Notes under the pieces: model-generated
Databases searched by the model: none
What the model was told of the DNA's origin: nothing
The model's input: the letters and a program-made list of their open reading frames with translations, nothing else
In this document: positions 17,643-39,444 of the stretch, piece by piece
How the letters are laid out: every line of letters begins with the position of its first letter
Numbering within the stretch: position 1 is the stretch's first letter
Made by a program: the position numbers and the translations under genes
Source: an uncultured Gemmatimonadota bacterium
Lineage (GTDB): Bacteria; Gemmatimonadota; Gemmatimonadetes; Gemmatimonadales; Gemmatimonadaceae
DNA length: 47,397 bases
Reading direction: 5' to 3'
Assembly (NCBI GenBank): GCA_902825965.1
Contig: CADEDA010000004.1
Location: 1 to 47,397 of the forward strand

Positions 17643-18086
17643 TCAACCGACGATATCGGCGTCTTCGTTTTCGCCGCCGCGCCGTCCATCGCGGCCGAGT
17701 GAGCGGAGATCGTAGCCTTCGCGGTTCTGCTCGCCGGGACTCGCGTACTCGTAGGCGTTGCCCCAGGGGTCCAAAGGGACCGACTTCCGCAGATACGGTC
17801 CGCGCCAGGTTGCGGGCGCGGTGGCGGGTTTGATCCAAAGCGCACCGAGACCTTCTTCGGTCGTCGGGTAACGTCCGACATGGAGCCGATAGGCGTCGAG
17901 TGCCGCACCCAGCATCTCGATCTGCGACTTCGCTGTCGTCTCGCGCGCACTGCCCACGTGTTGAAAGACATTGGGGGCCACGAGCGTCGCGAGGATCGCG
18001 ATCACCACGACGACGACGAGGATCTCAACGAGCGTAAATCCGCGACGGACAAGCGCTTGGAATTCCACCCGGATACCGCGACCCAT
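17643..18086 (-). CDS. gspG: Type II secretion major pseudopilin GspG
   Basis: 147 residues from ATG 18086, preceded by a strong AGGAGG ribosome binding site (minus strand, about 18090-18096); a longer open frame upstream lacks one. RRG|FTLVEILVVVVVIAILATLVAP is a class III prepilin signal with Glu+5. YPTTEEGLGALW, DPWGNAYEYASPGEQN and the C-terminal YDLRSLGRDG...DADI are specific to GspG and form its calcium-binding end. GspG builds the pseudopilus that pushes folded proteins through the secretin. The gene is divergent from the regulator and the rest of the T2SS genes, which is unusual because gspG normally sits between gspF and gspH. Confidence 0.95.
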   Translation of the reverse strand: MGRGIRVEFQALVRRGFTLVEILVVVVVIAILATLVAPNVFQHVGSARETTAKSQIEMLGAALDAYRLHVGRYPTTEEGLGALWIKPATAPATWRGPYLRKSVPLDPWGNAYEYASPGEQNREGYDLRSLGRDGRRGGENEDADIVG

Positions 18087-18236
18087 CTCACCTCCTATTT
18101 GAGGCCGTGCTGCACCCAACCGATACACTGTCAACAACTGCCGTCACCGCAGGTGATTGATGCGCAATTGGTTCTCATAGGGTATCATTTGCGCCCCAAG
18201 TACATGCACGCAAAGAGTACCGCTCCCATCTGAGTC

Positions 18237-19256
18237 GTGCCAGTGTCATTCATTCCGCGTGATTCCGAAAGCTCCAGCCCGTCGATCAACTCCGACGCCG
18301 TTCCCGTCTCGTTCGCGACTGCGAGCGGTGCGATGGCGACTGCTCTCGCGAAGCTGCAGCGCTTTGCGGCGACGGACGAGACGATCGTGCTGCTTGGGGA
18401 GACCGGAACCGGCAAGACGCATCTTGCACGCTGGTTGCATCAGCAGTCACGGCGTCAGCATCGCGACTTCTATGCGCGCAACCTCGCGGGTCTCGACGAC
18501 AGCCTCGCCAGCTCGGAACTCTTCGGCCACGTACCCGGTGCATTCACGGATGCGAAACAGGGTCGGCCCGGTCTCTTCGCATCTGCCAGTGGCGGTACGG
18601 TGCTGCTCGATGAGATCGGCAAGACGAGCCTTACGGTACAGCGCAAGCTGCTCGACGTGATCGAACGTCGCGCCTTCACGCCGTTGGGCACCAACCGCGA
18701 AGTCCGACTGAACGCGCGCCTCGTCTTCGCGGCGAGCGAATCGCTGGAAGCGCTCGCCGCAGCGGGCGTCATGCTGGCCGACCTGCTGCCGCGGCTCGGA
18801 CTGTTCCAGGTCAGGGTGCCCCCGCTCCGCGAGCACTGCGAGGATATTCCGGTGCTCATGGAATCCATGATCGCGCACTATGCAGCACGCTTCGGCTATG
18901 CGCCCGGCGATGCCCCGCGTCCCACCGCCGAGCTGCTCCAAGTGCTGATGGACTATGACTGGCCGCACAACATCCGGGAGCTGGATTCGTTGGTCCTTCG
19001 CCTGCTTGCCGAAGCGCCCGCGGACAGGCTCGACGTTTCGCTGCTGCGCGACGAATTGGCGCGCTACAACCCTCGTGCGACCCCCGTCCGACGCAAGCGC
19101 CCGAGCGTCGAAGACCTGCGCGACGCGCTGAGTCGTGCCGGTGGGCAGCGAAAGGCGGCGGCGAAGCTCCTCGGCATCGGCCGGACGAGTCTCTATCGGC
19201 TGATGCATGCGGAATCACGCGATCCAGGGACGGACGAACAGTCGCGAACCGCCTGA
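18237..19256 (+). CDS. Sigma-54-type AAA+ activator with GAFTDA loop (regulator 1)
   Basis: 339 residues from GTG 18237. There is no receiver, GAF or PAS domain; about 50 residues precede the AAA+ core. Walker A is GETGTGKT (54-61), Walker B TVLLDEIG (D125, E126), and the C-terminal Fis-type helix-turn-helix is GGQRKAAAKLLGIGRTSLYRLM. The sigma-54 contact loop reads GAFTDA (101-106) instead of GAFTGA. Family members open sigma-54 promoter complexes; changes in this loop often weaken sigma-54 contact, so activity needs testing. The gene lies between divergent gspG and gspE, and a palindromic array begins eight bases after its stop. Without a sensor domain, it may be controlled by expression level or a partner protein. 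Confidence 0.87.
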   Translation: MPVSFIPRDSESSSPSINSDAVPVSFATASGAMATALAKLQRFAATDETIVLLGETGTGKTHLARWLHQQSRRQHRDFYARNLAGLDDSLASSELFGHVPGAFTDAKQGRPGLFASASGGTVLLDEIGKTSLTVQRKLLDVIERRAFTPLGTNREVRLNARLVFAASESLEALAAAGVMLADLLPRLGLFQVRVPPLREHCEDIPVLMESMIAHYAARFGYAPGDAPRPTAELLQVLMDYDWPHNIRELDSLVLRLLAEAPADRLDVSLLRDELARYNPRATPVRRKRPSVEDLRDALSRAGGQRKAAAKLLGIGRTSLYRLMHAESRDPGTDEQSRTA

Positions 19257-19263
19257 TCGGGTC

Positions 19264-19311
19264 GTGTTCCGGGCTAGTGTTGGAACACGGGCGCGTGTTC
19301 CACTGGAACAC
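19264..19311. promoter_or_regulatory. Palindromic activator-binding array upstream of gspE
   Basis: Four half-sites in alternating orientation: GTGTTCC (19264-19270), GGAACAC (19282-19288), GTGTTCC (19295-19301) and GGAACAC (19305-19311). The last two form a perfect 17-base palindrome, GTGTTCCACTGGAACAC; the two dyad centres are about 27 bases apart. The array sits 65 bases upstream of a -24/-12 element. This arrangement fits an enhancer for a Fis-type dimer such as the adjacent regulator 1. Confidence 0.7.
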
Positions 19312-19376
19312 TCCGCAGGCACCCGACCCTAGCCTAAGCGGTTGTACATCAATCGGTTGATTGCGGCGCATCCTCA

Positions 19377-19390
19377 GGCACTCCGCTTGC
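19377..19390 (+). promoter_or_regulatory. Sigma-54 (-24/-12) promoter element before gspE
   Basis: GGCACTCCGCTTGC matches GGCAC-N5-TTGC with exact GG-N10-GC spacing. Transcription would start near 19402, almost at ATG 19404, which implies a leaderless or very short-leader message for gspE. That closeness is the main reason for caution. The palindromic array upstream supports it. Confidence 0.55.
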
Positions 19391-19403
19391 CTTGCTCTCG
19401 GGC

Positions 19404-20894
19404 ATGCCCGCCACCGCCGACCAGGCGCTCTCGCTCTGTCCGGAACTCACCCGAGAGTTCCTGCTGCACCATCGCGTCTGCCCGCTGCGCATCGACTCCG
19501 GCGAACAGCTGGTCGTTGGGCTCGCTCCCGGTGGTTGTGAGGACGCCGTCGCGGAGGTGGGCCGGGCGTATCGCCTGAGCGCCCACGCCGAAGAGATCGG
19601 CCAATCGGACCTCGAGCGCACGATCGAACGCCTCGTGAGCACGGCGGAACACGCACTCCGCTTCGGCAGCGAGAGGACGAGTGCCGCCGGTGAGGACGAG
19701 GACGACCTCAGCACGGACCTCCGTGAGCTCGCAAACCAACCGCCGGTGATCCGCTACGTGAACGCCCTCGTGCGCGACGCGGTCGAGTTGCGGGCGAGCG
19801 ACATCCATCTCGAGGCGATTCGCGGTGGCGAACTCGTCGTCCGCTTTCGGCGCGACGGCGTCCTCGCGCGTTCCGATGCGCCGCCGCCGGCACTTCCACA
19901 CGCCGTTGTCTCGCGCATCAAGCTGCTTGCCGAGCTCGATACAGCGGAGCGCCGGCGGCCGCAGGACGGGCGCATCCGCGTCCGCATGGAGTCCCGCGAC
20001 CTCGACCTGCGCGTCTCGACGGTCCCCACCATGCACGGGGAGAGCGTCGTCATCCGCTTGCTCGACCAGGGCGGACGACCGGTGGATCTGGCAGCACTCG
20101 GCATGTCACCGTCGATGTTCGATCGCGTGGCGGCGCTGGCCGACCGGCCGAACGGACTCATCCTCGTCACGGGTCCCACCGGCAGCGGAAAGACAACCAC
20201 ACTCTACTCGGCGCTGTCCCGCCGGCCGGCCGAGCGCGAGAAGATCATCACCGTCGAAGATCCCATCGAGTATCAACTGCCGGGAATCGCCCAAGTCCCT
20301 GTGCAGCAACGGGCAGGCGTGACGTTCAGCACGATCCTGCGTTCGATCCTGCGCCAGGATCCCGATGTCATCATGGTGGGCGAGATGCGCGACGCAGCGA
20401 CGGCTGAGGTCGCCATCCAGGCCTCGATGACGGGCCACCTCGTGTTCTCGACACTCCATACGAATGACGCCATCGGGGCGATTCCGAGGCTGCTCGACCT
20501 GGGAGTCCCGGACTACCTCGTTGCGGCGACGCTCGAGGGGGTGCTCGCACAGCGCCTCGTGCGGCGCATCTGCGACGACTGTCGCGTGGCCTACGAGGCG
20601 CCGGCCGAGCAAGTGGCCTTGGTCAGCGGTGGTCCCGCCGTCGGACGACGTCTCGAGCAGGGTGCCGGTTGCTCGGCCTGCCGAGGCTCCGGCTACCGCG
20701 GACGCGTGGGCCTGTTCGAGCTGCTGGTAGTCGACGACGAGATCAAGGATGCGATCACCGGCGGCGCGCGTCGCGCGGACCTTTGGCGCCTCGCGCTCCA
20801 AGCCGGAATGGCGACACTTCGCGCGGATGGATGGACCAAGGTCGAAGCCGGGCTCACCACCTTGGATGAGGTGATTCGTGTCACCGCGGATTGA
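19404..20894 (+). CDS. gspE: Type II secretion ATPase GspE
   Basis: 496 residues. The N-terminal LCPELTREFLLHHRVCPLRI domain is GspE-like. Walker A is GPTGSGKTT (K263), preceded by DLDLRVSTVPTMHGESVVIRLL. The Asp box is EKIITVEDPIEYQL, and Walker B is DPDVIMVGEMRD. A four-Cys zinc module (CDDC near 20572, CSAC near 20674) is intact. GspE is the cytoplasmic hexameric motor that powers pseudopilus assembly. ATG 19404 is chosen because the conserved N-terminal domain begins directly after it. It overlaps gspF by 17 bases. Confidence 0.95.
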   Translation: MPATADQALSLCPELTREFLLHHRVCPLRIDSGEQLVVGLAPGGCEDAVAEVGRAYRLSAHAEEIGQSDLERTIERLVSTAEHALRFGSERTSAAGEDEDDLSTDLRELANQPPVIRYVNALVRDAVELRASDIHLEAIRGGELVVRFRRDGVLARSDAPPPALPHAVVSRIKLLAELDTAERRRPQDGRIRVRMESRDLDLRVSTVPTMHGESVVIRLLDQGGRPVDLAALGMSPSMFDRVAALADRPNGLILVTGPTGSGKTTTLYSALSRRPAEREKIITVEDPIEYQLPGIAQVPVQQRAGVTFSTILRSILRQDPDVIMVGEMRDAATAEVAIQASMTGHLVFSTLHTNDAIGAIPRLLDLGVPDYLVAATLEGVLAQRLVRRICDDCRVAYEAPAEQVALVSGGPAVGRRLEQGAGCSACRGSGYRGRVGLFELLVVDDEIKDAITGGARRADLWRLALQAGMATLRADGWTKVEAGLTTLDEVIRVTAD

Positions 20895-22101
20895 CGGGCG
20901 TTCGGCCGGCGAGACGCGCTTCGCGTATCGGGCGCTGCGCATCGATGGGAGCGAACAACGCGGAGAGGTGGCGGCGCCGACGCTCGCGGGCGCCCGCGAG
21001 AAGGTGGCGATCCTCGGGCTGCTGCCGATCGAGCTGCAGGGTGTCGCCGAGCGCTTCGAGGCGCAGGGGCGCATTCCGGTCGGGGATCTTGCGCTCGGGC
21101 TTCGCCTGATGAGTTCCCTGGTCAACGCAGGTCTCCCTATGGACCGCACCCTTGCCACGTTCGCGCACGTCGCGCCCTCGTCATGGACGACCCAACGTCT
21201 GGACGCGCTCCGGGCAGCGGTCCGGGAGGGAGCGACGCTGGGGCACGCCATGCGGGACGCGGGTGTCCCGCTGCCGCGCCATGTCCGTGGGATGCTCGAT
21301 GCCGCGGAAGCCGGTGGTACGCTTCCATCCGTGCTCAGCGACGCGGCGCAGCTGCTCGAGGAGAGCAACCGCCAGCGAGCGGCGCTGCGGGGTGCCCTGG
21401 CGTATCCCGCCCTGCTCGCTCTCGTGGGGACCGTCGCGCTCGGATTGCTGCTCGGGGTCGTGCTGCCGCGATTCGCGGACCTGCTGCACGAAGTCGGCCA
21501 ACAGCTGCCACTCACGGCCCGGTGGCTGCTCGGGCTCTCTCAGATTGGGCTGCGGTGGTGGCTGCTCCTCGTCGGTGTCGCAGCCGTGGGATCGTCGAGC
21601 TTCGCCAGAACGTACGCGGCCGATGCGTCGTTTCGGCGCCGCGTCCACGAAGCGCTGCTGGCGGCCCCGCTGCTGGGTCCGGTGCGATTCGCCGCCGCGG
21701 GGTCGCGATTGACCGCCGCGTTGGCGTCCATGCTCTCGTCCGGCGTGCCGATCGCCACGGCACTCGCGCATTGCGCCCACGCATCCGGCGATGAGGCGAT
21801 CGCACATCGAGTGCAGAACGCGCGTGATGCCGTGATCCGTGGCGAACGCCTGTCGCAGGCATTCGCCGCCGAAGCCACCGTCCGCCCCGGCATGCTGCAG
21901 CTCATCCGCGCGGGTGAGGCGACCGGCGAACTTCCACAGATGCTCCGCACGGCCGCTACCATTGAAGCAGAATGGTGTGCGGCCCGCGTACGCGCGATCA
22001 CGGGGCTCATCGAACCGTCACTCATCCTCGGCTTCGGAGCCGTGATCGCGTTCGTCGCATCCGCACTGCTCCAGGCGGTGTACGCCGTGCGGCCCGCATG
22101 A
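20878..22101 (+). CDS. gspF: Type II secretion inner-membrane platform protein GspF
   Basis: 407 residues from a GTG start inside the end of gspE. FAYRALRIDGSEQRGEVAAPTL is the typical N-terminus. Two helical T2SSF repeats are seen (LRLMSSLVNAGLPMDRTL... and LTAALASMLSSGVPIATAL...), each followed by EAGGTLP/EATGELP turns. Three hydrophobic segments are near ALLALVGTVALGLLLGVVLP, IGLRWWLLLVGVAAVG and LILGFGAVIAFVASALL. GspF links the ATPase to the pseudopilus. It overlaps gspH by 4 bases. Confidence 0.93.
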   Translation: MSPRIDGRSAGETRFAYRALRIDGSEQRGEVAAPTLAGAREKVAILGLLPIELQGVAERFEAQGRIPVGDLALGLRLMSSLVNAGLPMDRTLATFAHVAPSSWTTQRLDALRAAVREGATLGHAMRDAGVPLPRHVRGMLDAAEAGGTLPSVLSDAAQLLEESNRQRAALRGALAYPALLALVGTVALGLLLGVVLPRFADLLHEVGQQLPLTARWLLGLSQIGLRWWLLLVGVAAVGSSSFARTYAADASFRRRVHEALLAAPLLGPVRFAAAGSRLTAALASMLSSGVPIATALAHCAHASGDEAIAHRVQNARDAVIRGERLSQAFAAEATVRPGMLQLIRAGEATGELPQMLRTAATIEAEWCAARVRAITGLIEPSLILGFGAVIAFVASALLQAVYAVRPA

Positions 22102-22469
22102 CGCCGTGGCAATCGCGCTCCCGGCACGGCGTCACGCTGATCGAACTGCTCGTCGTGCTCCTGATCGTTGGTATCACGGCGAGCGTGGTGCATCTCGCAT
22201 GGTCGTCCCCTTCGGCGCCCTCCGCGTCGGCCGATGACTTGAATCGGCTCATCGCCCACGCACGTCGTGAAGCGATCCGTTCGGGACGACCACAGCGCGT
22301 GTCGTTCGTGCTGGATGAGGACGGGAAGCTGCGCGACTCAACGACGCCACGCGCGGGCGCCTTTGCCCGCACGGTCACTGCGCTCCCGGACGGCGGACTC
22401 CTTGCCGCTGACGACCTTCGGTTCGACCGGATTCTCGGAACGCCGGCGACGCCCGAGGGTGTGCGATGA
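22098..22469 (+). CDS. gspH: Minor pseudopilin GspH
   Basis: 123 residues. RHG|VTLIELLVVLLIVGITASVV is a class III prepilin signal with Glu+5. The following ADDLNRLIAHARREAIRSGRPQRVSF segment matches the GspH/FimT pattern of a helix with an R-x-A-x-x-x-x-R run. The protein is shorter than enterobacterial GspH. Start ATG 22098 overlaps gspF's stop (ATGA), and its own stop overlaps gspI. It is the tip-adjacent pseudopilin. Confidence 0.82.
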   Translation: MTPWQSRSRHGVTLIELLVVLLIVGITASVVHLAWSSPSAPSASADDLNRLIAHARREAIRSGRPQRVSFVLDEDGKLRDSTTPRAGAFARTVTALPDGGLLAADDLRFDRILGTPATPEGVR

Positions 22470-22846
22470 GTCGTGCTGCCCCGACCAGCCGGCACTGCCG
22501 CGCGGGCCTCACGCTGCTCGAGCTGCTCGTGGCCCTGACGCTGCTCGCACTGACCGGCCTTTCCACCATGGAGTTGGTGCGCACCGCAGCGCGCTTCAGT
22601 GGCGCGGCGGCCACGGCCGAGTCCGAGCTGCACTCCGCTTCACAGCTGCTCGACGCCATGCATCTCTGGTCGCGGACCGAACTCGACCAACGCCTCGGCG
22701 AACGCGAGCAGGGTCCGTTCCGCGTGGAGATCACGCGCCCGACGCCGGATCTCTATCTGGTCGTGGTGCGGGACAGTGCCGGAACCTCCGAACTGCTCCG
22801 GACCGGGATCTTCCACGCAAGGACGTCCGATGCGTACGCACGCTGA
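22466..22846 (+). CDS. gspI: Minor pseudopilin GspI-like
   Basis: 126 residues. RAG|LTLLELLVALTLLALTGLSTM is a prepilin N-terminus with Glu+5. After the helix, a small domain (SQLLDAMHLWSRTELDQRLGER...) fits the size of GspI. Assignment as I rests on size and the H-I-J-K order; sequence alone cannot separate small pseudopilins firmly. It overlaps gspH by 4 and gspJ by 17 bases, implying translational coupling. Confidence 0.75.
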   Translation: MSRAAPTSRHCRAGLTLLELLVALTLLALTGLSTMELVRTAARFSGAAATAESELHSASQLLDAMHLWSRTELDQRLGEREQGPFRVEITRPTPDLYLVVVRDSAGTSELLRTGIFHARTSDAYAR

Positions 22847-23375
22847 TCGCGTACGGCGGGGCTACACCTTGCTCGAGCTCGTGGTGGCGCTCGTGCTCAC
22901 CGGCGGCACGCTGCTTGCCGCGTCGGCGATGCTCTCCGCCACCGCGCGGCTCACCGAAGCGGTCCAGCAGGAAGTGGCGCGATCGGACGCACGCCGCGGA
23001 AGCGAACGTCTCATGCGCCGTTTGGTGGGGCAGGCCACATGGCCGACCGAGCGTGAGCCGGCGCCTGGAGGCGACGGGGCATCGTTGCAGCTCGTGTCGT
23101 GGTGTGACACGCCGGAAGGTTGGCATCGGCGCTGCCTCGTGCGATTCGAGCGGAGCGACTCCGGTGAGCCGACGGGCCTCCAGTTGATCGTCGATGATCG
23201 GAAACCGCAGCTGTTGTTTCCCGCCGATACGATCCTGGCGTTCATCTACTTGCGGAGTGCCGCGCACGGCGGCAGCTGGGATGCTCGGTGGAGCGACCCC
23301 GCGACGATCCCGGTCGCCATCGGCGTGGTCTTCGCCTCCGACACGCTGGTCCTGCGCACCGGGGAGCGCGGATGA
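22830..23375 (+). CDS. gspJ: Minor pseudopilin GspJ-like
   Basis: 181 residues from ATG 22830. RRG|YTLLELVVALVLTGGTLLAASAML is the prepilin N-terminus. The globular part contains a pair of Cys (WCDTPEGWHRRCL) and the GspJ-like size and position between I and K. GspJ helps form the GspH-I-J-K tip complex. The stop overlaps the gspK start by 4 bases. Confidence 0.8.
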   Translation: MRTHADRVRRGYTLLELVVALVLTGGTLLAASAMLSATARLTEAVQQEVARSDARRGSERLMRRLVGQATWPTEREPAPGGDGASLQLVSWCDTPEGWHRRCLVRFERSDSGEPTGLQLIVDDRKPQLLFPADTILAFIYLRSAAHGGSWDARWSDPATIPVAIGVVFASDTLVLRTGERG

Positions 23376-24337
23376 GCCTGCGTCGCGGCTACGTGCTCCT
23401 CACCGTCCTCTGGTTCCTCACCGGAGCGGTCGTGCTCGCGACGGTCGCCATGGCATCGGCGCGTGGCGGACTTGCGACCGCCAGCAATCGCGCGGCGCTC
23501 CTGCGCGCGGAGTGGCACGCCGAAGAATGCCTTGCGCGAGCCCGGGCCGCGATGCTCGCCGTGACCCTAGGAGAAGGCGCACCCGCGCGCGAAACGTTCT
23601 TCCGCCAGGGCCTCGCGTTCCGCTGGCAGGTGCTCAACTCACCGCTGGTGCTGGGGTGTCCGGGTACGGTGGACCTCGATCCGTTCGGCCACGGGCTGAG
23701 TCTGGTCACCGTCTCGGGGCCGCTGCTCGCACGGGTGTTCCGTGCGGCGGGAGTTCCCGCCGCGTCGACCGACTCACTCGTGGATGCCTTCCTGGACTGG
23801 CGCGATGCCGATGACAGCACACGCGCGCATGGCGCCGAGCGGGACTGGTACGCCGATCGCGGGGAACCAACGCCGCGGAACGGACCCCTGCTGAGTCTCG
23901 ATGAGCTGCAGGCCATTCGTGGCTACACGCCGTGGGTCGGGCCCGGCGCAGCCGTCGATCCATCGCGACTCTTCACGGTGGACTCGGACCTCCTGTTCGT
24001 GGATGCCGCGGCCGACGCGATCCTCATGGCCCTGCCCGGGTTCACCGAGGAGGCAGCCGCGTTCGTCGCCGAGCGCCGCCGCCGGAACGCGGAGCCACTC
24101 CAGGAACTGCTGGCCCTGATGGGCGGACTCGCCCCGGAGTCGCAGGCCGTCCTGACGCGTGCGTTCGGTGAACTGAGTGACATCGCAACGATCGCGCCGG
24201 GGGGGTGGATCCTCAGGGCGCGCAGTTCGGGTGTGCCGGGAACCCCGCAGGCGGAGCGCCTGCAGGTGGAGATCGAGCTGCGTCTTGCGATCGATGGGCA
24301 GCGTCACGCGATCACCAGAAGGAGGGTCTCACCATGA
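23372..24337 (+). CDS. gspK: Minor pseudopilin GspK
   Basis: 321 residues, the largest pseudopilin as expected. The prepilin segment RRG|YVLLTVLWFLTGAVVLATVAM lacks Glu+5, as is normal for GspK. The body contains SLDELQAIRGYTP and LFTVDSDLLFVDAAAD, matching the GspK alpha domain (SLxEL...G), and ALPGFTEEAAAFVAERR is helix-hairpin-helix-like. GspK caps the pseudopilus tip. The stop overlaps gspL by 4 bases. Confidence 0.88.
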   Translation: MSLRRGYVLLTVLWFLTGAVVLATVAMASARGGLATASNRAALLRAEWHAEECLARARAAMLAVTLGEGAPARETFFRQGLAFRWQVLNSPLVLGCPGTVDLDPFGHGLSLVTVSGPLLARVFRAAGVPAASTDSLVDAFLDWRDADDSTRAHGAERDWYADRGEPTPRNGPLLSLDELQAIRGYTPWVGPGAAVDPSRLFTVDSDLLFVDAAADAILMALPGFTEEAAAFVAERRRRNAEPLQELLALMGGLAPESQAVLTRAFGELSDIATIAPGGWILRARSSGVPGTPQAERLQVEIELRLAIDGQRHAITRRRVSP

Positions 24338-25488
24338 GTGCGTCGTTTCCTGTCGCTGCAGCGACCGCGCGTCTCGGGCGAGGTCCGTGGTCCCCAGTGC
24401 AGATCGGGATCTACGTCGGACCTGACGCGGTGGCAGCCGTGGAGGTCGGGGCCGGTTCGGTCCCGCATTGGGTGCTCAGCGGGCCCGCACCCGTCGACGG
24501 TGAAACCCTCACGACCAGCATCACCGAGCTGCTCTCGCGCATGCCCAGGTCGCACGGATCCTGGCGCCGACCGCGCGCGGTGGTCGGCATGCATGGCGAG
24601 TTTGCGCAGTACAAGCGGCTCTGGGGGTTGCCGCCGGTCGCCGACCCCACGGTGGGCAGCGCGCTGGTCCGCGAGAACGCCGCGCGATTCTTTCGGCAGA
24701 CGCCGCACGGCCTCAGCACGAGTGCGGTGGTCGTCCGTGCACCGGGGGAGATCTGGGCATCCGCCGTCGACACCTCGATCGTCCGCACGGTGTCGCACTG
24801 CTGCAAGACCCATGGCGTCGACCTTGGCGCCCTGATCCCGATGGACTCGGTCGCGGCCGATTCGCCCGCGCCCGCGGTCCTCGCGGACGACGCCAGCGTG
24901 AAGGCCTGGCGCCTGGCGCGGATCGCCGCCGCCAGCGGCGACATCGATTTCAACAGCGCCACCCTCGGGACCTTCCACAGAACGCGTTCGCCGCGGCGCG
25001 AGCGATTCGCCTTGGCGGCGTTGTGCATGGCGAGTGCACTGCTGGCCACGCTTCCGGTGTTGGATGCCCAGCGCAGCGCTCGCATCGCGCGCCAAGGCCA
25101 CGCGGCGATCGCGGCGCGGGAAGCGGAGGCGCTCGCCATGGTGGCGGAACTCAACCAAGTCGATGCCGCCCTCCTTGCGATCGCACAGGCGCAGGTGTCA
25201 CGCCGGCACAGCATCGATGTCATCGCGCACCTGACCGCGACACTGCCGCCGGGTGCCGCGATCACGCACCTGCAGCTCGACAGTCTCGGCGGCACGGTCA
25301 CGGCACTCGCCTCGTCCGCCGACGGGGTGATCAAGGGTCTGGCGGCGAGTCCACTGATCGTCCAGCCGGAGATCGTCGGTCCCGTGACACGGGACCGGTC
25401 GGCGGGACGCGAGTTCGATCGTCTTGCGGTTCGGTTCAGGCACCCCGTGCGGCAGGCGCCTGTGGTCGACCGAAGGAGCGAACCATGA
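24334..25488 (+). CDS. gspL: GspL-like inner-membrane assembly protein (PilM/PilN-like architecture)
   Basis: 384 residues. The N-terminal part (VQIGIYVGPDAVAAVEVGAG, RAVVGMHGEFAQYKRL) is actin-like, as in PilM and the cytoplasmic domain of GspL. One transmembrane segment follows (FALAALCMASALLATLPVL, about residue 230), then a helical stretch rich in Ala/Glu and a PilN-like end (IDVIAHLTATLPPGAAITHLQLD). GspL docks GspE to the membrane. The gspK-gspL-gspM-gspC series is joined by ATGA overlaps. Confidence 0.78.
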   Translation: MSASFPVAAATARLGRGPWSPVQIGIYVGPDAVAAVEVGAGSVPHWVLSGPAPVDGETLTTSITELLSRMPRSHGSWRRPRAVVGMHGEFAQYKRLWGLPPVADPTVGSALVRENAARFFRQTPHGLSTSAVVVRAPGEIWASAVDTSIVRTVSHCCKTHGVDLGALIPMDSVAADSPAPAVLADDASVKAWRLARIAAASGDIDFNSATLGTFHRTRSPRRERFALAALCMASALLATLPVLDAQRSARIARQGHAAIAAREAEALAMVAELNQVDAALLAIAQAQVSRRHSIDVIAHLTATLPPGAAITHLQLDSLGGTVTALASSADGVIKGLAASPLIVQPEIVGPVTRDRSAGREFDRLAVRFRHPVRQAPVVDRRSEP

Positions 25489-29093: not shown

Positions 29094-29121
29094 CATCGGC
29101 ACTTAGAAGAAGTGGGGGGTG

Positions 29122-29135
29122 GGCACACTCGATGC
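29122..29135 (+). promoter_or_regulatory. Sigma-54 (-24/-12) promoter element before the RHS gene
   Basis: GGCACACTCGATGC has GG-N10-GC spacing with GGCAC at -24 and ATGC at -12 (consensus TTGC). Transcription would start near 29147. That position excludes the far-upstream GTG 29119 as start of the RHS gene and fits TTG 29191 or ATG 29227. Confidence 0.6.
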
Positions 29136-29190
29136 TATGAGGGAAGCGGAAGTCGACCCCCATCGTCAACGAGAGATTCCGGAGGTTCCC

Positions 29191-32100
29191 TTGGTTTCGG
29201 CCCGCTCCTTCTCCGCGCCCACAGTGATGCGTGCTCTCAGGCGCTTGGGTCTCTGGACCGTGCTTGTCACGCTGCTGCAGGCGACGCTGCCCGGGACCAG
29301 CAACGCGCAGTTCTGCGCGGACAACGATCCGTGTCCCACGAATCAGGCCCCAGTGGTGAGTCTCGTTGGGGATGCGACGACAGCGCAAGCGAGCTACACC
29401 TTCGCGGTGTTTGCCAGTGACGACGGGATGCTCGCACCGGCGAGCCTTCAGCTCTGGTTGAACGGGGCACTTCAGACCTCATGGGGACAATCCCCCCTCT
29501 CATCGCCGTGGACCACACACTCCACGCCCGGCCAAGTGACACTATCCGCAGGCACGAACACGCTCATCGTTCAGATGTGTGAGACGCGCTCGTCGCCGCT
29601 GTGTGGAGCGGACACACTTGTTGTGACGTATGCGCCCCCGCCCACCCCTCCCGCCACGGCAGCTCCGGTGCTCTCGCTTGCGCAGCGGAATGACGGTCGC
29701 CTGTTGGACGGGTGTGCGACTTGCTCGACGATGACGGCAAGCTATGCCACCCCGGAGTTCTACCTCAACGGCTCTCCCCGGAGCGTGGTCGTCCGGTACT
29801 CCTCCGAGCAGGCAAATCCGGTCGGCTATGTAGAAGTGGACGCGCACGTATGGGCGCAGACCGCCCCTACGCGGCTCGGCATTCGCTTGGAGCGCAATGG
29901 ATCGCCCCTCACGCTCGCGAACGGTGGGACCGAGAGTTTCGTCGTCGGGGGTCTCGGAACCTATCGGCTCGCGGCCTGGTTTGACGCGTGGAACCTTCCG
30001 AGCGACTCCATTGACGTGAGCGTCATCGTCACTGCGTACTACGGCCCCGCCGGCGCGCCGACAGACATCAAGTCAGACACACTCGACCCCGTGCGAGTGC
30101 TCGTTCACAACGCACGCCTGAGTCCGTACGGTCGCGGATGGACGGTCGCTGGCGATGCGCGTCTGCACAAACAGCACAATGGAAACCTCGTCGTGAGCGA
30201 CGGGGCCGGCAGCATGGAGTACCACCAGCTGGCGGGCTGCGGCGGGTCGCCGTGGACCTGCTCCTACACGCAACCTGCCGGCACCGTGGCGACCATCGCC
30301 CGCGTCTTGGTGCCGACGGGGCTACTCAATCCGCCCGACACTGTTTGGGTACGCGACAACAAAGACGGCTCACACACGTACTGGACGAACGTCGGGCTGT
30401 TGGATAGCCTGGTCGACGCGTACGGGAACACCACGACGTTCGAGCGGATGACCTCAGGTGACGTGAACCGACTCTATCGCATAAAGTTGGCAACCGCCGT
30501 TGGTGCGACCGCAATCACGAAGTACGTCACATTTGGCTATGACGGTGATGGCAAGCTGAGCTCGATCACCCTGCCCGATGGTCGCGCCTCGACGTTCAGC
30601 GTCACCAGCGGTTCAGGCGGGACGCTCAACGCAGTGGTCGATCCAGATGGGGTCACGGCACTGAGCGCAACCTACTCGTTCGGTTTCATGATGACGGTCG
30701 CCGGCCGCAACGCGAAGCCAGACTCGCTGACCTACGATGGCCACTGGCAGTTGTTCACGCGCCGCGGTCCGGTGGTCGCGATCGAGGGAGGAACCAGCCG
30801 CGATTCACTCGCCATCTACTCACTGCGTTCGCGCCTCTTGTCCAACAATGCGACCAGCGCGACGGGTTCGCCGATGGCAAACGCGACGCTCGCCGACAGC
30901 GCCATGATGCGACTGAGTGGGCGCAACGGCACATCAACGGAGCTCTGGAGTGCGGTTGGCGGCGGTGCGCGGCTCGTGCGTTCGAAGACCTCGGCCGGGA
31001 AGGTTGAGGAAGCACGCACCACGTTCGATGCGGCCCATCTCCCGGTGCTCACGAGTACGACGGGCCAGGCCGGACAGAGCCTTGAATGGTCGGGGGGTCG
31101 CTTGGTCAAGACCGCGGACGTGGCGACGGGCCTCAGCACGTCGTACCACTACGACGGCAGTGGTCGCATCGACTCGATAACGGTGAACGGTGTACGGATG
31201 GTGCGGCACTTCTACACGGGTTCGTCCTACGCCCCGGATAGCAGTCGATCCGACACGGCAAACGTGATTCGCTACACTCATGATGCTCGCGGACGTCTGC
31301 TCACCGTCAAGGACGCAAACAATGTGACGGTCACGCACACCTACGAGACGACGCACGGGAATCTGGCGTCCTCGGTGCGCTCCGGGACCGGCGTCCCGAC
31401 CACTAGCGCCGCGTTCACGTACGACGCGAGTGGCAGCGCAATCACGACGACCGACCCGCTCGGGCGAGTGTTCACCAACACGTACAACAATGTGGGACGC
31501 GTCACGCAGGAGCAGGGACCGCTATCGACGTCGACGACGCGATCCTACAACGACGCAACGGGTACGTACGGGCTCACGGATCCCAAGGGACAGCAGTATA
31601 CGACGCACGTAAATGCCGCCGGTCTCGCCACGTCACAGGTCGATCCCACCGGTGCTCGCGACAGCGTCACCTATGATGCAGACGGACGCATCGCTGTGTC
31701 GCGTAGTCGACGCGGAGATGAGGTACGCTTTACGTACGATGGCTTCGGTCGCGTTATCACGCGAACCCACAAGATCTCCGGCCAGACCACTCCGGATACA
31801 ACCAGTTTCGCCTACGATTCGCTTGGGAGATGGGTCGCCGCACGCAACGCGGAGAGTATCGACACGCTGACAGTCGATGCGGGTGGACGCGCGTCGCAGG
31901 CCGTCAGTCGCCGTGGCGCGGTGCGCCTCAACGTAGACTACGGTTACACGGCGGGGACGCTGTCCAGTCGGATCGTCGTCGGCGGAACGCCCAGCAGCGG
32001 CTCGGCCTGGTCCGACACACTTGGCCTGGCGTACGACGTCCAGCGCAATGCAAACGTGTTCCGTGACTTCGGCGGGAAGGACACCAAGTCCCTGCTCGAC

Positions 32101-33813
32101 AAGTCAGGACGTCTCGTGACCGACACATTCCCGACGAGCTCGGTCGCGGCTAGCAAGGTGCGGCGCTCGACCAGCTACTCCGCGACCGGCGACGTCATTG
32201 CGCAGACGTTCACCAGCAGCGGCGACTACCTGCTCTCGCGCACCTATGGCGACCACGATGCCCTCGGGCGGATCGGTTCGATCTCACGACAGAACGCGCC
32301 CGCGCCAATCGTGCGGCTCCACGAATACGACGCCTTGGGGCGCTTGGTCACGTATCAGGACAAGCAGACGTACGATTCCGTGTACTACTTCCAGACGCCG
32401 TGGGACCCGTACGGCGACTGTCCCGGCTGCTTCATCCTGGACTCCACGGTGACGACCGTGACGAATGTGCTCCGGTCGGCGACGTACGTGTATGACAGCG
32501 TCCACAATCGTCGTGATCTGAACTCAACCATCGCCACAGGCAACCGGGTCACGGCGATGGACAGCTGGGGAATCGCCTACGACGCGGCAGGCCACATCAG
32601 CCAGCGATGGAAAGGGGCTGATACGCTTACCTACACGTGGAACGGCTTGGGTCAGCTGATTCAGGTGGTCGCACCGGGGGGTGCGACAACAACGTATGGC
32701 TACGATGGGTTCGGGCGTCGCGTGCGCAAGACCGTGAATGGGGACACGACACGCTATCTCCTGGATGGCGATCGGGTCATGGCGGAGACCGACGGCGTGG
32801 GAGCCGTGCGTGCACTCTACTCGTACTTCCCCGGTGTGGACCGGCCGCACGCGATGCTGCGCAACAACAAGCGGTACTATTTCGCGCAGGACGTGCAGGG
32901 CAACATCATCGGCCTCATGGACTCCGTCGGTCACGTGGCACAGACCTACAACTACACGCCGTACGGGGAAGCGGTGGACGACATGGGGGAATCGGTCGTC
33001 AATCCGTATCGCTACAAAGGGCGGGAGTGGGATGCAGAGGCGCGGCTGTACTACATGCGGGCGCGGTACTACGATCCGATGCTGGGACGGTTTCTCTCGG
33101 AGGATCCGATCGGGCTGGCAGGGGGGATCAATCCGGCCATGTTTGTGGACGGGGATCCGGTGAACTTGTACGATCCCGACGGCCTCACGCCGTGTCCACG
33201 CGTGAATACGACCTGTCCGTGGGGGCTTCCCGCAGCCGTGTCGTCAGTTGCGCCGCGACGGACACTCAACCAGCATATCTTTCTCCTTGGTGCTTCGCGC
33301 CCAGGATTCACATCCTTCCTCGGAAACGATGCGCACACTGAGGACCACTTCAGGTTGTCTGGTCCCCCAGGGCTACTCGAGTCGCTCAGCGCTGACTGCA
33401 AGGATGCGCTAAAGAGCGTGCTCGTCAGTATGGCGTTCGATGCGATCGGGTTCGGTGCACTCAAGCGGATTTGGTCGACACTACCTGACGTTCTGGCCAC
33501 CACTTACCGAGGCCTGGATAAGAAGTTGCTAGAATTCGGCAAAGCGGCGGTGCAGTCGAAGGGAGTGTTTTTGCCACGAGTCAATAAGGCCACGCGGCTC
33601 GGATTCGACCATGATCTTGCTGCCATCGTTCGGTGGGGCGAGGATGTCGCGGGGGCGGGAATGCCCCCCGCAACCTTTCAGGGATCTGAAGCCATGCTGT
33701 CGGGCGGCGACCTTGGCATGGCGGTGGCTTCGCTAGCACTTGGTTTCATTCCTGGCGGAAACAGTGTAGTAGCCCTTGGGGAAGCCTTGTATGAATGTGG
33801 GCTCCGTAGCTAG
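29191..33813 (+). CDS. Secreted RHS/YD-repeat protein (polymorphic-toxin-like)
   Basis: About 1540 residues from TTG 29191, which has GGAGG five bases upstream; ATG 29227 is the alternative and both keep the Sec leader (LGLWTVLVTLLQATLPGTSNAQ). An N-terminal Cys-rich/Ig-like part (NQAPVVSLVGD..., GCATCSTM) leads to many YD repeats (YGNTTTF, YDGSGRIDSI, YDADGRIAVSR, YDGFGRVITR). The RHS core end is RYYDPMLGRFLSEDPIGLAGGINPAMFVDGDPVNLYDPDGL. Beyond it, about 210 residues form an unrecognised tail with no familiar nuclease or deaminase motif, and its DNA is less GC-rich than the core. RHS shells enclose C-terminal toxins. There is no PAAR or VgrG partner, and the gene follows the T2SS operon, so export by Sec then T2SS is inferred. 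A small membrane protein follows as immunity candidate. Confidence 0.88.
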   Translation: MVSARSFSAPTVMRALRRLGLWTVLVTLLQATLPGTSNAQFCADNDPCPTNQAPVVSLVGDATTAQASYTFAVFASDDGMLAPASLQLWLNGALQTSWGQSPLSSPWTTHSTPGQVTLSAGTNTLIVQMCETRSSPLCGADTLVVTYAPPPTPPATAAPVLSLAQRNDGRLLDGCATCSTMTASYATPEFYLNGSPRSVVVRYSSEQANPVGYVEVDAHVWAQTAPTRLGIRLERNGSPLTLANGGTESFVVGGLGTYRLAAWFDAWNLPSDSIDVSVIVTAYYGPAGAPTDIKSDTLDPVRVLVHNARLSPYGRGWTVAGDARLHKQHNGNLVVSDGAGSMEYHQLAGCGGSPWTCSYTQPAGTVATIARVLVPTGLLNPPDTVWVRDNKDGSHTYWTNVGLLDSLVDAYGNTTTFERMTSGDVNRLYRIKLATAVGATAITKYVTFGYDGDGKLSSITLPDGRASTFSVTSGSGGTLNAVVDPDGVTALSATYSFGFMMTVAGRNAKPDSLTYDGHWQLFTRRGPVVAIEGGTSRDSLAIYSLRSRLLSNNATSATGSPMANATLADSAMMRLSGRNGTSTELWSAVGGGARLVRSKTSAGKVEEARTTFDAAHLPVLTSTTGQAGQSLEWSGGRLVKTADVATGLSTSYHYDGSGRIDSITVNGVRMVRHFYTGSSYAPDSSRSDTANVIRYTHDARGRLLTVKDANNVTVTHTYETTHGNLASSVRSGTGVPTTSAAFTYDASGSAITTTDPLGRVFTNTYNNVGRVTQEQGPLSTSTTRSYNDATGTYGLTDPKGQQYTTHVNAAGLATSQVDPTGARDSVTYDADGRIAVSRSRRGDEVRFTYDGFGRVITRTHKISGQTTPDTTSFAYDSLGRWVAARNAESIDTLTVDAGGRASQAVSRRGAVRLNVDYGYTAGTLSSRIVVGGTPSSGSAWSDTLGLAYDVQRNANVFRDFGGKDTKSLLDKSGRLVTDTFPTSSVAASKVRRSTSYSATGDVIAQTFTSSGDYLLSRTYGDHDALGRIGSISRQNAPAPIVRLHEYDALGRLVTYQDKQTYDSVYYFQTPWDPYGDCPGCFILDSTVTTVTNVLRSATYVYDSVHNRRDLNSTIATGNRVTAMDSWGIAYDAAGHISQRWKGADTLTYTWNGLGQLIQVVAPGGATTTYGYDGFGRRVRKTVNGDTTRYLLDGDRVMAETDGVGAVRALYSYFPGVDRPHAMLRNNKRYYFAQDVQGNIIGLMDSVGHVAQTYNYTPYGEAVDDMGESVVNPYRYKGREWDAEARLYYMRARYYDPMLGRFLSEDPIGLAGGINPAMFVDGDPVNLYDPDGLTPCPRVNTTCPWGLPAAVSSVAPRRTLNQHIFLLGASRPGFTSFLGNDAHTEDHFRLSGPPGLLESLSADCKDALKSVLVSMAFDAIGFGALKRIWSTLPDVLATTYRGLDKKLLEFGKAAVQSKGVFLPRVNKATRLGFDHDLAAIVRWGEDVAGAGMPPATFQGSEAMLSGGDLGMAVASLALGFIPGGNSVVALGEALYECGLRS

Positions 33814-34088: not shown

Positions 34089-34499
34089 ATGAGACAGGGC
34101 GACATTAAGTGGGCAGTACGCCGAACGCTCGGCTTCTTCGTGTTCGTGGCGCTAATCAGCAGCCTCGCTGAGGTGCTGAGCCGCGGTGCGGTATCTCAGA
34201 AGTTCAAGCTGCCGCTTCCACTGATCCTGCTCTACTACGGCGCCTCTGCACTGTTCGCGGGACTCTTGATCGGTCTGCTACGCGACCAGCTGTGGCGGAA
34301 GCTCGTTCGGGCATCCATCGGCGTCCTCACCACCGCGATGCTCCTTCTGCTCTTCATTCTTTCGCGAATGAGCGCGGATGGGGTTCGGCCCTCCTTCATG
34401 GGGTACACTTTGATCGCGGCAGTGGCGCTCGTACTTGGAACTGTCGCGGGGCTACAGTTCGAAGCGCCAGCGTCGAGGGAGACGAGAAAGGAAGGGTGA
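34089..34499 (+). CDS. Small four-helix membrane protein (candidate RHS immunity protein)
   Basis: 136 residues from ATG 34089. Four hydrophobic segments: FFVFVALISSLAEVL, LPLILLYYGASALFAGLLIGLL, ASIGVLTTAMLLLLFIL and YTLIAAVALVLGTVAGLQF. I recognise no family. Its place about 275 bases after the RHS tail is where immunity genes of polymorphic toxins lie. A membrane location would suit a tail that acts on the inner membrane from the periplasm. Function is an inference from position only. Confidence 0.6.
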   Translation: MRQGDIKWAVRRTLGFFVFVALISSLAEVLSRGAVSQKFKLPLPLILLYYGASALFAGLLIGLLRDQLWRKLVRASIGVLTTAMLLLLFILSRMSADGVRPSFMGYTLIAAVALVLGTVAGLQFEAPASRETRKEG

Positions 34500-34662
34500 A
34501 CGAAGCAGCCTTCGCCTCCATAGACGGTGAGCTTCGCGACTGCCGCTGCGCCTGTCACTTAGAATCGAGTGGACCGCGATCGCTAGGGCGTGGTCCCCCG
34601 AACTGAGTTCCCATCCTTTGGTGAAGACTGCTAGTGAGGGTCCCCCCGTCCGCACTCCAGTT

Positions 34663-35504
34663 CTATGCTGACAACTGAGCGGGTGGTGTAGTGAAGGTCT
34701 GGGCGAACTCGAACGGGGTCAAGGGGTGGCAGGCTTCGTGCGGCCGGGCGGTGTTGAAGTCGCGGCGGTACCGCTCGACGTGAAACTGCGCGTCGAGTAG
34801 CGACCGGAACCAGTGTTGATTGAGGCATTCATCGCGGAACTTCCCGTTGAAGCTCTCGACATCGCGTTCTGCACCGGCTTCCCGGGTTGAATGAACTGCA
34901 ACGCGATCCCGCGATCCGCGGCCCACGCATCAAACGCGCGACTGCGAAACTCACTGCCGTTATCGAGCGACAACCGGGTGGGTTGATCGCGCCCGGTGAT
35001 CACCGCCTCGAGGGCGGCAATCACGGCGGTGCTCGGCAAGCTGTACGCCACGGTGATCGCCAAGCACTCGCGGGTGCAACTGTCAATGAGCGTGAGACAC
35101 CGAAAGCGCCGGCCGCTGCGCAGTTGATCGCTCACGAAGTCGAGACTCCAGGTCTCAGTCGGTCCTGTCGCGATCGGCCGCGGCACGCGCGGCACGGCGA
35201 GTCGTTTCCGCTCGCGCCGGCGTACCGCGAGGCCTTCGAGGCGATAGAGCCGCACGACGCGCTTGTAGTTCACGAGCCAGCCAGCGCGCTGCAGTCGCCA
35301 GTGTAAGCGAGGCACGCCCCACCGCGGATGCTCGGCCGCGAGCGTCACGAGCTTCTCGCGCAGCGGCGCGTCGAGGACCGGCCGCTGCGGCACGAAGCGC
35401 ACCACCGAGCGTTCGAAGCCCAGCGCCCGGCAGGCGTATCGCTCGCTGATCGGATACCGCGCCTGAACCGCCGTGACCACCGCCCGGCGCTCGCCGGTGG
35501 TCAT
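34663..35504 (-). pseudogene. IS3-family transposase OrfB, frameshifted
   Basis: The rve-type catalytic domain is split. The first part has a typical HTH_21-like YPISERYACRALGFERS, GVPRLHWRLQRAG, and the first two catalytic Asp in TETWSLDFVSD and TRLSLDNGSEF. After FIQPGKPVQNA the frame shifts by one base near 34862, and the expected continuation VESFNGKFRDECLNQHWF with the catalytic Glu lies in another frame, ending at TAG 34663-34665. A single T seems lost (GCG-AT for GCG-TAT). The shift separates the D-D from the E, so the protein is inactive unless it is a sequencing error. Confidence 0.85.
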
Positions 35505-35767
35505 GATCCTTTTCCCAGCACGTCCTTCAGGATCTGGAGATTCAGCGCCTGGTCGGCGACGAGACGCTTGAGGCGCGCGTTCTCGTCTTCGAGGGCCTTC
35601 AGTCGCTTCGCGTCGCTCACCTGCAAATCGCCGTAGCGCTTCTTCCATGCGTAGAACGTCTGGCGGGAGACGTTATGACGCCGCATCAGCTCGGCGGGAG
35701 CCGCACCGGCGGCATGCTCCTGCAGAATCGCGATGATCTGCTCGGTCGAAAACCGGGACTTCCTCAT
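35501..35767 (-). CDS. IS3-family transposase OrfA
   Basis: 88 residues: helix-turn-helix RFSTEQIIAILQEHAAGAAPAELMRRHNVSRQTFYAWKKRYG followed by a leucine-zipper helix (LKALEDENARLKRLVADQALNLQIL). The end DVLGKGS lies on a slippery A-AAA-G run near 35512, allowing a -1 shift into orfB as is usual in this family; orfB's own ATG (35504) also overlaps the orfA stop. Confidence 0.92.
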   Translation of the reverse strand: MRKSRFSTEQIIAILQEHAAGAAPAELMRRHNVSRQTFYAWKKRYGDLQVSDAKRLKALEDENARLKRLVADQALNLQILKDVLGKGS

Positions 35768-35851
35768 CTAAGCTCCTTGGTCGCCTCGAAGACGACCGAT
35801 GGGGCTCAGGAGTCAAGCATCAACTGGAGGGAGTGGCGGGGGGACCCTCAC

Positions 35852-37243
35852 CAGATTCCCAACGACCCGTACGGTGACTGCCCGGGGTGCTTCATCCTCG
35901 ACTCGATCATCCATACAACGGTCGATACCCTGAACTACAAGGCGTACAGCTACGACCTTGTGCACAATCGCACCGACGGGGGTGCCACGGTAACGACGGG
36001 AAATCGGATGACGGGAATGGACGGTTGGACCATTACCTATGACGACGCGGGATTCATCCGCAAGCGCAAGAAGGGTGCGGACTCGTTGGCGTACACCTGG
36101 AACGCGCTAGGGCAGCTCACGAAGGTAGTGGCGCCAGGATACACCGTGACCTACGGTTACGACGCCTTCGGCAATCGGGTGCGCAAGTCCGTAAACGGCG
36201 ACTCAACGCACTACATCGTCGAAGACGGAGCGGTGTTGGTGGAGCTGAGCGACTCCTGGCAGCCAGTCGCGAAGTACACGTACTACCCGGGCGTCGACCA
36301 ACCACACTCGATGGTGCGGGATGGTAAACGGTACTACTTCCTGCAGGACGCGCAGGGGAACGTGACGGGGGTCGCGGATTCGGGTGGGGTGCTGAAGAAC
36401 ACGTACCACTACTCCCCGTACGGAGAAGCGCTTTCTGGGACTAGCGAAACCGTGGCGAATCCGTACAGGTTCAAGGGGCGGGAGTGGGATGCGGAGGCGC
36501 GGCTCTACTTCATGCGGGCGCGGTACTACGATCCGCAGATCGGGCGGTTCGTTTCCGACGATCCGATTGGGCTCGAAGGGGGCATCAATCCCACGGCGTT
36601 CGTTGGCGGAGAACCAGTCAATCGTGCTGACCCCTCGGGTCTGCTCTGTCAGCTCGCTTGGGACATCCATAGCTGGACCTCAACGGGGGAGGTCTTCTTC
36701 GTAGGCAACTTCCGCTTCGAAGGAAGCTGTGGGCACCTGTTCGCTGAAGGAGGAGCGCCCGGCTACTCGCTTGGATCCCGATTCGGCGGTTGGTGGCACG
36801 GACTTCTTGAGGAGGAGAAGCGTGCGGCGAGTGTGGCAAGCGTGGAGCAATCGTCGGAAGGGCAGGCTTCCGCGGCCAGACAGCCTACCCGTATGCAATG
36901 CAGAGAGGCAGGGATGGCTGCCTTTCGCGGCCTATGGGTGGCACACGCTCTGGGAGGCACCGGCGTGGCTGGCGCAGGCAAGGGGGCCAGCTACTTCTCT
37001 GAAGCCATCAAGGAGCGCGCGGCTGGAAGTCTGCGCAAGGCCCGGACACTCCTTCGCGAGCCAGGTCAGTACGTATCATTCAAGGATCTCGCAAGGACGA
37101 CTCAGACGATGTCCCGCGCTGCGTCATGGGCTAGAGCGGGAATCGCCACAGCGAGAGCAGGTGTCGTTGTTGGGGGATTTGCCATAGGGTTCGCGATCGG
37201 AGTCGACGCGATGTGCATGTACGATGTCAACTACTACTCTTAG
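35852..37243 (+). pseudogene. Displaced RHS C-terminal fragment with a different tail
   Basis: The reading frame begins at the right end of the IS with QIPNDPYGDCPGCFILDS and has no start codon or ribosome binding site of its own. Its first 265 residues are closely similar to the C-terminal part of the RHS protein at 29191, including GREWDAEARLYFMRARYYDPQIGRFVSDDPIGLEGGINPTAFVGGEPVNRADPSGL. Beyond that, the tail of about 195 residues is unrelated to the tail of the intact gene and ends in Ala/Gly-rich hydrophobic helices (ARAGVVVGGFAIGFAIGVDAM). This is the classic orphan RHS-CT arrangement, a silent store that can swap tails by recombination. The IS removed or replaced its 5' part. Confidence 0.85.
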
Positions 37244-37559
37244 TCTTGCCTCAGCGTACGCAGTGGATTTCTCGCATGGAGGGATTGTGCAGCTCTTCGT
37301 GACTCGAACCAAGCTGAGTCGAAAGGTGCGAGTCGTGGCTGGTGGCCTAGCCATCCTCAGCGGGTGGGCTGCGCAGAATGGGCCTCTGGACGGCTCGAGG
37401 CTGGCACTACTTCTCAACTGGGGCCAAGTGGTGGTTGCATTGGTCCTTGGACTAACGGCGATCGGGTGGCGTCTCCACACATCGTGGGAAGGGAAGGGTC
37501 GGATTCCCATCGGAACGAAGCACAGGGACGCGAGGAATCGCGAGGATCCCTGGTTCTAA
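37224..37559 (+). CDS. Small membrane protein (candidate immunity for the displaced RHS tail)
   Basis: 111 residues from ATG 37224, overlapping the end of the RHS fragment by 20 bases; starts further in are possible. Two hydrophobic segments (VRVVAGGLAILSGWAA and ALLLNWGQVVVALVLGLTAIGW) are followed by a basic tail (KGRIPIGTKHRDARNRED). No family is recognised. Tight coupling to the orphan tail is the argument for an immunity role. Confidence 0.5.
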   Translation: MSTTTLSLASAYAVDFSHGGIVQLFVTRTKLSRKVRVVAGGLAILSGWAAQNGPLDGSRLALLLNWGQVVVALVLGLTAIGWRLHTSWEGKGRIPIGTKHRDARNREDPWF

Positions 37560-39435: not shown

Positions 39436-39444
39436 GTGCCTCTC

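Follow-up and report, generated by a model that had tools for sequence, protein, structure and literature searches.

The window analysed here is a stretch of 47,397 nucleotides from an uncultured Gemmatimonadota bacterium. It makes up the initial 47.4 kb of contig C4 (298,930 bases) in a genome, labelled G000, of 4.07 Mb with a completeness of 95% and a contamination of 0.7%. A gene map built from Pfam and NCBIfam profile scans and gene calling places a set of type II secretion system (T2SS) genes, two sigma-54 activator genes and a gene for a rearrangement hotspot (RHS) protein side by side (Table 1), and it is this locus, together with its relatives in the phylum, that is considered below. 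The module is bounded on one side by tex (15318-17615) and on the other by a stretch with a transposase of the IS3 type of insertion sequence (IS), which separates the two RHS pieces of the window.

Table 1. Features of the T2SS-RHS locus (positions in the window; TM, transmembrane; HTH, helix-turn-helix; ORF, open reading frame).
Feature	Position	Strand	Basis
gspG major pseudopilin, displaced and divergent	17643..18086	-	TIGR01710 157 bits, cut-off 88.85; 60% identity to gspG beside gspE at G000:C16
Sigma-54 activator 1	18237..19256	+	PF00158, AAA_lid_14, HTH_8; no sensor domain found; loop GAFTDA instead of GAFTGA
Palindromic half-sites GTGTTGGAACAC..GTGTTCCA..TGGAACAC	19277..19311	.	read directly from sequence; putative activator site
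Sigma-54-like -24/-12 site before gspE, CAGGCACTCCGCTTGCC	19375..19391	+	score 22 of 26
gspE ATPase	19404..20894	+	PF00437; TIGR02533 best NCBIfam match, under its cut-off
gspF	20878..22101	+	PF00482; TIGR02120 best, under cut-off
gspH pseudopilin	22098..22469	+	N_methyl; TIGR01708 under cut-off
gspI pseudopilin	22466..22846	+	N_methyl; XpsI and PilV under cut-off
gspJ pseudopilin	22830..23375	+	prepilin motif; remaining matches under cut-off
gspK	23372..24337	+	PF21687 above cut-off
gspL	24397..25488	+	PilN-like region under cut-off; position; relatives
gspM	25485..26078	+	T2SSM under cut-off; position; relatives
gspC	26075..26539	+	no family match; position and similarity to relatives
gspD secretin, 500 residues	26539..28041	+	PF00263 and Secretin_N above cut-off, N0 weak; TIGR02517 best, under cut-off
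Sigma-54 activator 2, overlaps gspD end	28038..29093	+	PF00158, HTH_8; GAFTGA intact; no sensor domain found
Sigma-54-like -24/-12 site before rhs, TGGGCACACTCGATGCT	29120..29136	+	score 22 of 26
rhs: leader, immunoglobulin-like N-terminal part, YD repeats, RHS core	29230..33813	+	PF05593 and TIGR03696 (92.9 bits) above cut-off
Variable rhs tail, about 208 residues, helical, C-terminal part hydrophobic	33187..33813	+	starts after DPxG-X19-DPxGL
Candidate immunity gene, 136 residues, about 4 predicted TM segments	34089..34499	+	gene calling, TM prediction; no Pfam family
IS3-type transposase, orfB apparently split over two frames	34719..35767	-	rve, HTH_21
Orphan RHS tail cassette: C-terminal core part and different tail (36644-37243)	35675..37243	+	PF05593, TIGR03696 above cut-off
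Second candidate immunity ORF, small, hydrophobic stretch	37224..37559	+	ORF list; no Pfam family

The window holds the T2SS core components, namely ATPase, platform, secretin, major and minor pseudopilins, and C, L, M and K, so that the core E-F-H-I-J-K-L-M-C-D with a divergent G named in the original prediction, which was made from the sequence alone, is borne out. GspG and GspK score above their family cut-offs, and the best matches of E, F and D are T2SS models, yet under the NCBI equivalog cut-offs. As the matches of L and M are under cut-off and C has none, gspL, gspM and gspC were named by position and by their relatives. Regarding gspG, many relatives have this gene directly after gspE. 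A type IV pilus or competence identity was rejected, because GspG passes its cut-off, K belongs to a T2SS family and C/L/M-like genes are in place. The gspO gene had been called absent; this holds for the locus itself, where none was found, but not for the genome, which has a Peptidase_A24 match above cut-off at G000:C23 for the prepilin peptidase function. On another contig (G000:C16:1-8000, locus L010), an RHS gene of at least 1,557 codons diverges from a gspE and a gspG of the same subfamily, an arrangement that looks like a duplicate of the module, either incomplete or in decay.

The rhs gene has about 1,527 codons (a possible alternative start is the TTG at 29191, preceded by GGAGG), and both its YD repeats and its RHS core end score above cut-off; the N-terminal part has a Big_7 match under cut-off. 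By sequence similarity, the shell resembles solved Rhs proteins of the type VI secretion system (T6SS), Tse5, Tse15, Tre23 and TcC subunits. The core ends in DPxG-X19-DPxGL, and among 41 distinct cores from the sampled loci this DPxG pair is present in 37, with a spacing of 19 in 35. PAAR was not found in the Pfam scan of the window RHS protein, and a search of G000 for VipB, the T6SS sheath gene, found none (VgrG and PAAR were not searched genome-wide); the protein does not show the combination of a PAAR or VgrG link with a T6SS in the genome by which T6SS Rhs effectors are recognized. The core part of the orphan cassette and the core of the full gene share about 68% DNA identity over about 600 bases. 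Small membrane proteins had been predicted at the immunity position, and this is true of the product of 34089-34499; the ORF at 37224-37559 is less clearly a membrane protein, with one predicted TM segment (scored in its 98-residue form). The Pfam scan returned nothing for both tails and both candidate immunity genes. An AlphaFold model from eight aligned tails is mostly helical with a mean confidence (pLDDT) of 47.6 and is too poor for a fold search, so that "pore-forming" is a guess for the window tail. A second full-length RHS gene lies outside the window (G000:C4:55951-60588, L009:10951-15588), about 28 kb beyond gspD. Its product matches that of the first at 55% identity over 1,373 residues and has a tail of its own, and the gene is followed by a small multi-TM gene.

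In order to place the locus among its relatives, 115 gspD loci were collected and reduced to 86 clusters at 97% identity and 85 tree rows; L041, a gspD remnant of 158 residues with no RHS found nearby, was kept out of the tree. Loci were fetched from 60 places among the matches listed, and the outside-clade loci are those fetched or returned by the searches. One clade of 48 in the secretin tree of 85 loci holds the window; it has full support (SH-like approximate likelihood ratio test, 100), and its stem measures 0.53 changes per column. Within this clade, an RHS gene lies within 11.5 kb of gspD in 32 loci, is lacking in eight and could not be assessed in eight; the corresponding figures for the 37 other loci are 2, 29 and 6. 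The 14 unassessable rows (eight in the clade, six outside) have less than 5 kb downstream and no RHS, and were left out of the counts. Of the loci that could be assessed, 32 of 40 in the clade thus show RHS linkage, compared with 2 of 31 outside it (Fisher p ~3e-10); these two are L073 and L076, with RHS within 9 kb. In 20 of the 32 linked loci the RHS match starts on the gspD strand, no more than 4.1 kb downstream of that gene; in seven it is on the opposite strand and in five it is found upstream only. For one of the unassessable loci (L057/L115), an RHS core lies about 11 kb upstream (G267:C1), beyond the fetched sequence.

In the clade, the usual gene order is activator 1, when present, then E G F H I J K L M C D, activator 2, when present, and RHS, and the other common T2SS type in the sample has E after D. 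Of 42 clade loci, 27 have an activator gene at most 1.5 kb behind gspD, as do none of 35 others. Both the linkage and the order gspD, activator, RHS recur in related genomes, as they should if the original prediction is right. In a sample of 395 genomes, an RHS core end was found in 34 of 35 clade genomes and 54 of 360 others (p ~5e-24), a count that is not independent of the linkage count. The clade secretins have a mean identity of 51% in 18 loci, and a modest co-divergence of gspD with the linked RHS cores was measured in 18 loci (Mantel r 0.28, p 0.002). A wider scan of an 84,980-species collection with short peptide patterns found clade members under Gemmatimonadota titles alone, save one contig labelled Acidobacteria gp6 (L072); the other matches under non-Gemmatimonadota titles are distant secretins of 25-33% identity. 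Spread beyond the phylum was rejected, since L072 matches the Gemmatimonadetes contig L056 at 99.99% identity over about 14 kb and is probably misbinned.

The tails of the RHS proteins are polymorphic: 41 distinct ones were read, including a few that belong to outside-clade loci. Pfam scans of 16 tails gave matches to toxin, hydrolase or DUF4329 families for six and nothing for ten. Four matches are over cut-off: Tox-REase-7 (3e-14), peptidase M23 (7e-18), DUF4329 (5e-9) and peptidase M15_3 (3e-5); the other two, another M23 and a glucosaminidase, fall under it. The Tox-REase-7, M23 and DUF4329 tails are in clade loci, and the M15 example is near a T2SS outside the clade. Arrays of cassettes, each made of an RHS core end and a tail, stand beside the T2SS in two loci of one genome, five in L037 and three in L038. 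The marks of polymorphic toxins, a conserved core, tails that appear exchangeable and orphan cassettes, are found together here. Of the hydrophobic tails, which include that of the window, seven have a small gene close behind, and in six of these cases the gene has at least two TM segments (L137, among the six, is from outside the clade). A gene of this kind follows 3 of the 12 other tails that have a gene close by, and 41 of all 516 small genes in these loci are of this kind; the hydropathy thresholds by which tails and TM segments were classified were of our own choosing. A hydrophobic tail with a multi-TM gene behind it is what pairs of pore-forming toxin and immunity protein would be expected to look like.

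Two flanking sensor-less activators of the sigma-54 type had been predicted and are confirmed: both have AAA+ and Fis-type HTH domains, with no sensor domain in the Pfam scans, and they differ in the GAFTGA loop, which is intact in activator 2 and altered to GAFTDA in activator 1. The rpoN gene was found elsewhere in the genome. Co-regulation had been proposed from promoter motifs, and for this the window alone is near chance, with nine sigma-54-like sites against 5.4 expected, which is not significant; the case rests on the comparison of relatives. Among clade loci, considering upstream regions with at least 80 intergenic bases, sites scoring at least 21 are present before 9 of 22 rhs and 11 of 22 gspE genes, together 20 of 44, compared with 8 of 207 other intergenic starts (p ~1e-11). 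The close half-sites before gspE (GTGTTGGAACAC, GTGTTCCA and TGGAACAC) are a candidate activator binding site. A point of doubt is that the gspE site would place the start of transcription almost on the start codon.

Taken as a whole, these results point to a T2SS subfamily whose dedicated task, under sigma-54 control, is the export of RHS polymorphic toxins, which would act as large bacteriocins, and we consider this reading probable. Sigma-54 RNA polymerase, triggered by both local activators, would transcribe the T2SS operon and rhs. The RHS protein would cross the inner membrane by means of its signal peptide and fold in the periplasm into a YD-repeat shell enclosing the C-terminal tail, where the DPxG autoprotease motif at the core end is expected to cut it. 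The pseudopilus would then pass it through the adjacent short secretin GspD to the outside, and the exported protein would hit competing bacteria. The tail would be the toxin, damaging membranes in the case of the window, and the small membrane protein encoded behind it would shield the producer; tails might be swapped by recombination with the orphan cassettes beside the locus. A stronger form of the proposal makes this Gemmatimonadota T2SS lineage a specialised weapon, with RHS toxins as its main or only cargo, released as diffusible bacteriocins in sigma-54-driven bursts, rearmed from stored cassettes and filling the role that T6SS or contact-dependent inhibition (CDI) has elsewhere; on this form our judgement is evenly divided.

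Several observations weigh against the proposal. Eight assessable clade loci (L061, L067, L069, L106, L110, L119, L122 and L130) have no RHS within reach; four of them have little upstream sequence, and for L106 an RHS core is present about 16 kb off (G157:C79), beyond the fetched sequence. The mild co-divergence of gspD and RHS could stem from organismal descent alone. A sigma-54-like site is present in less than half of the regions upstream of gspE and rhs, and in the window such sites are near chance, as said above. Regarding export, the Sec leader of the original prediction stands in part: the leader MRALRRLGLWTVLVTLLQATLPGTSNAQ is signal-peptide-like, yet fails a crude hydropathy rule. 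By that rule a signal peptide is present in 17 of 23 RHS ORFs of at least 900 residues, the window's own not being among those that pass, and in 9 of the 14 such ORFs not cut by contig ends. The window N-terminal region is detectable in just 3 of 22 other RHS ORFs of this length, and for this reason no export signal common to all RHS N-termini was found. The lack of a Pfam family for the window tail counts on the same side. Further RHS genes of G000, such as that at C4:55951-60588, lie away from a clade-type secretin, and the 8 kb read of C16 holds RHS, gspE and gspG, with neither gspD nor other T2SS genes found in it. Finally, the window secretin is the only strong match of the clade type in G000, the next two scoring 94 and 67 bits, and the machine may therefore carry other cargo too.

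This last point leads to the alternative that survives best, a general-purpose T2SS that exports many enzymes, RHS being one cargo among others. It overlaps with the proposal and denies only the dedication. That the window holds the sole strong clade-type secretin found in G000 speaks for it; some clade genomes, however, have a second T2SS with E after D and no adjoining RHS (L043, L141, L150 and L151), and sister loci carry a different cargo, so that we regard it as a serious possibility, though one we lean against. It could also be that RHS cassettes and IS elements pile up by chance in a variable island that contains a T2SS, the RHS protein leaving by another route or staying at the cell surface. 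The IS3 transposase between the RHS pieces, the lower G+C content of the RHS region (about 0.61-0.64, where most of the window elsewhere has 0.65-0.71) and the RHS genes elsewhere in the genome agree with such a hot-spot, which is nevertheless unlikely: linkage is focused in one T2SS clade although its secretins share only about half of their residues, nearly all clade genomes have an RHS core, an activator directly follows gspD in most clade loci, sigma-54-like sites stand before both gspE and rhs, and no T6SS sheath gene was found in G000. The least probable alternative, a structural or adhesive surface protein of the WapA or teneurin kind that the window T2SS secretes, fits the Big_7-like N-terminal part, the teneurin-like shell and the window tails without a Pfam match, and is hard to reconcile with tails of the Tox-REase-7 and M23 peptidoglycan-hydrolase types at the same position, with orphan tail cassettes, with small multi-TM genes behind hydrophobic tails and with the conserved DPxG pair. 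The devoted T2SS subfamily remains the reading that we prefer.

Multicopper-oxidase-like ORFs adjoin the T2SS loci L133 (by Pfam) and L136, L146 and L148 (by similarity, L148 weakly), and in L133 and L136 a sigma-54 activator lies between machine and oxidase gene. As this secreted, oxidase-like cargo stands beside sister systems, T2SS loci in the phylum can mark their cargo, which counts in favour of the proposal. Further along the window, a low-complexity stretch at 39402-39908 (reverse strand 39616-39795), upstream of an ORF at 40228, codes for repeats, RRLAVxPRRLA in one frame and DDxDEQEGD-like in another.

Type II secretion is usually associated with digestive enzymes. A dedicated T2SS with a genetically linked substrate is known from the Hxc system of Pseudomonas aeruginosa, whose cargo LapA is a phosphatase, whereas here it would be a polymorphic toxin. 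If the proposal is true, a T2SS has been specialised for antagonism and not for digestive enzymes, and a weapon system is added for a phylum in which only 26 of 200 sampled genomes were found to have the T6SS sheath gene. Polymorphic toxins with a signal peptide have so far been put under "T2SS/Sec" by default, with no neighbouring machinery; a T2SS clade with RHS toxins in the same locus makes this route directly testable. In the literature searched, most subscription papers and bioRxiv preprints excepted, a T2SS locus dedicated to RHS toxins, or such a system in Gemmatimonadota, was not found. The principle of T2SS and RHS has precedent, and a dedicated, co-encoded, phylum-wide T2SS appears to be undescribed within that literature.

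The original prediction took RHS toxins to be linked with T6SS, contact-dependent or Tc-type export, a premise that was too narrow, as the T2SS route is found in PMC3482391, PMC10684867 and PMC7259588, to which the following comparison refers. In the first of these, Zhang et al. (2012), the T2SS (general secretory pathway) is the most prevalent route for polymorphic toxins, RHS included, and RHS toxins with a signal peptide only are filed as "T2SS/Sec-dependent". The signal peptide, RHS repeats, variable C-terminal toxin and immunity genes of that group have counterparts in the window in the signal-peptide-like leader, the RHS repeats, the variable tail and the candidate immunity genes; the mark of export there is the signal peptide, with the signature-neighbour column empty, whereas the window has T2SS neighbours. 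The arrays of L037 and L038 are like the standalone toxin cassettes named in the same paper (PMC3482391).

Tse5, a T6SS Rhs protein, shares the YD shell and the DPxG aspartyl-protease motif and has an encapsulated tail, as is also proposed for the window protein; the tail of Tse5 is pore-forming, and the Tse5 paper names the T2SS among Rhs routes (PMC10684867). The DPxG spacing is 18 there and 19 in most cores here, and Tse5 is delivered by a T6SS, unlike the window RHS, which has a leader and lacks PAAR in the Pfam scan, in a genome with no sheath gene found. Another close known system is Bcn-A of Xanthomonas perforans, an RHS/YD bacteriocin of 1,398 residues that is active in the supernatant, has an immunity ORF in its locus and loses its activity when xpsD (gspD) is mutated; killing by an RHS protein that depends on a T2SS is thus already known (PMC7259588). 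The Bcn-A locus has five ORFs, none of which is named as T2SS in the accessible sections, and secretion was tested through the xps T2SS of the strain (PMC7259588). The window T2SS, known here from its genes, is instead encoded together with its putative RHS cargo, forms a clade of its own and has its own sigma-54 activators.

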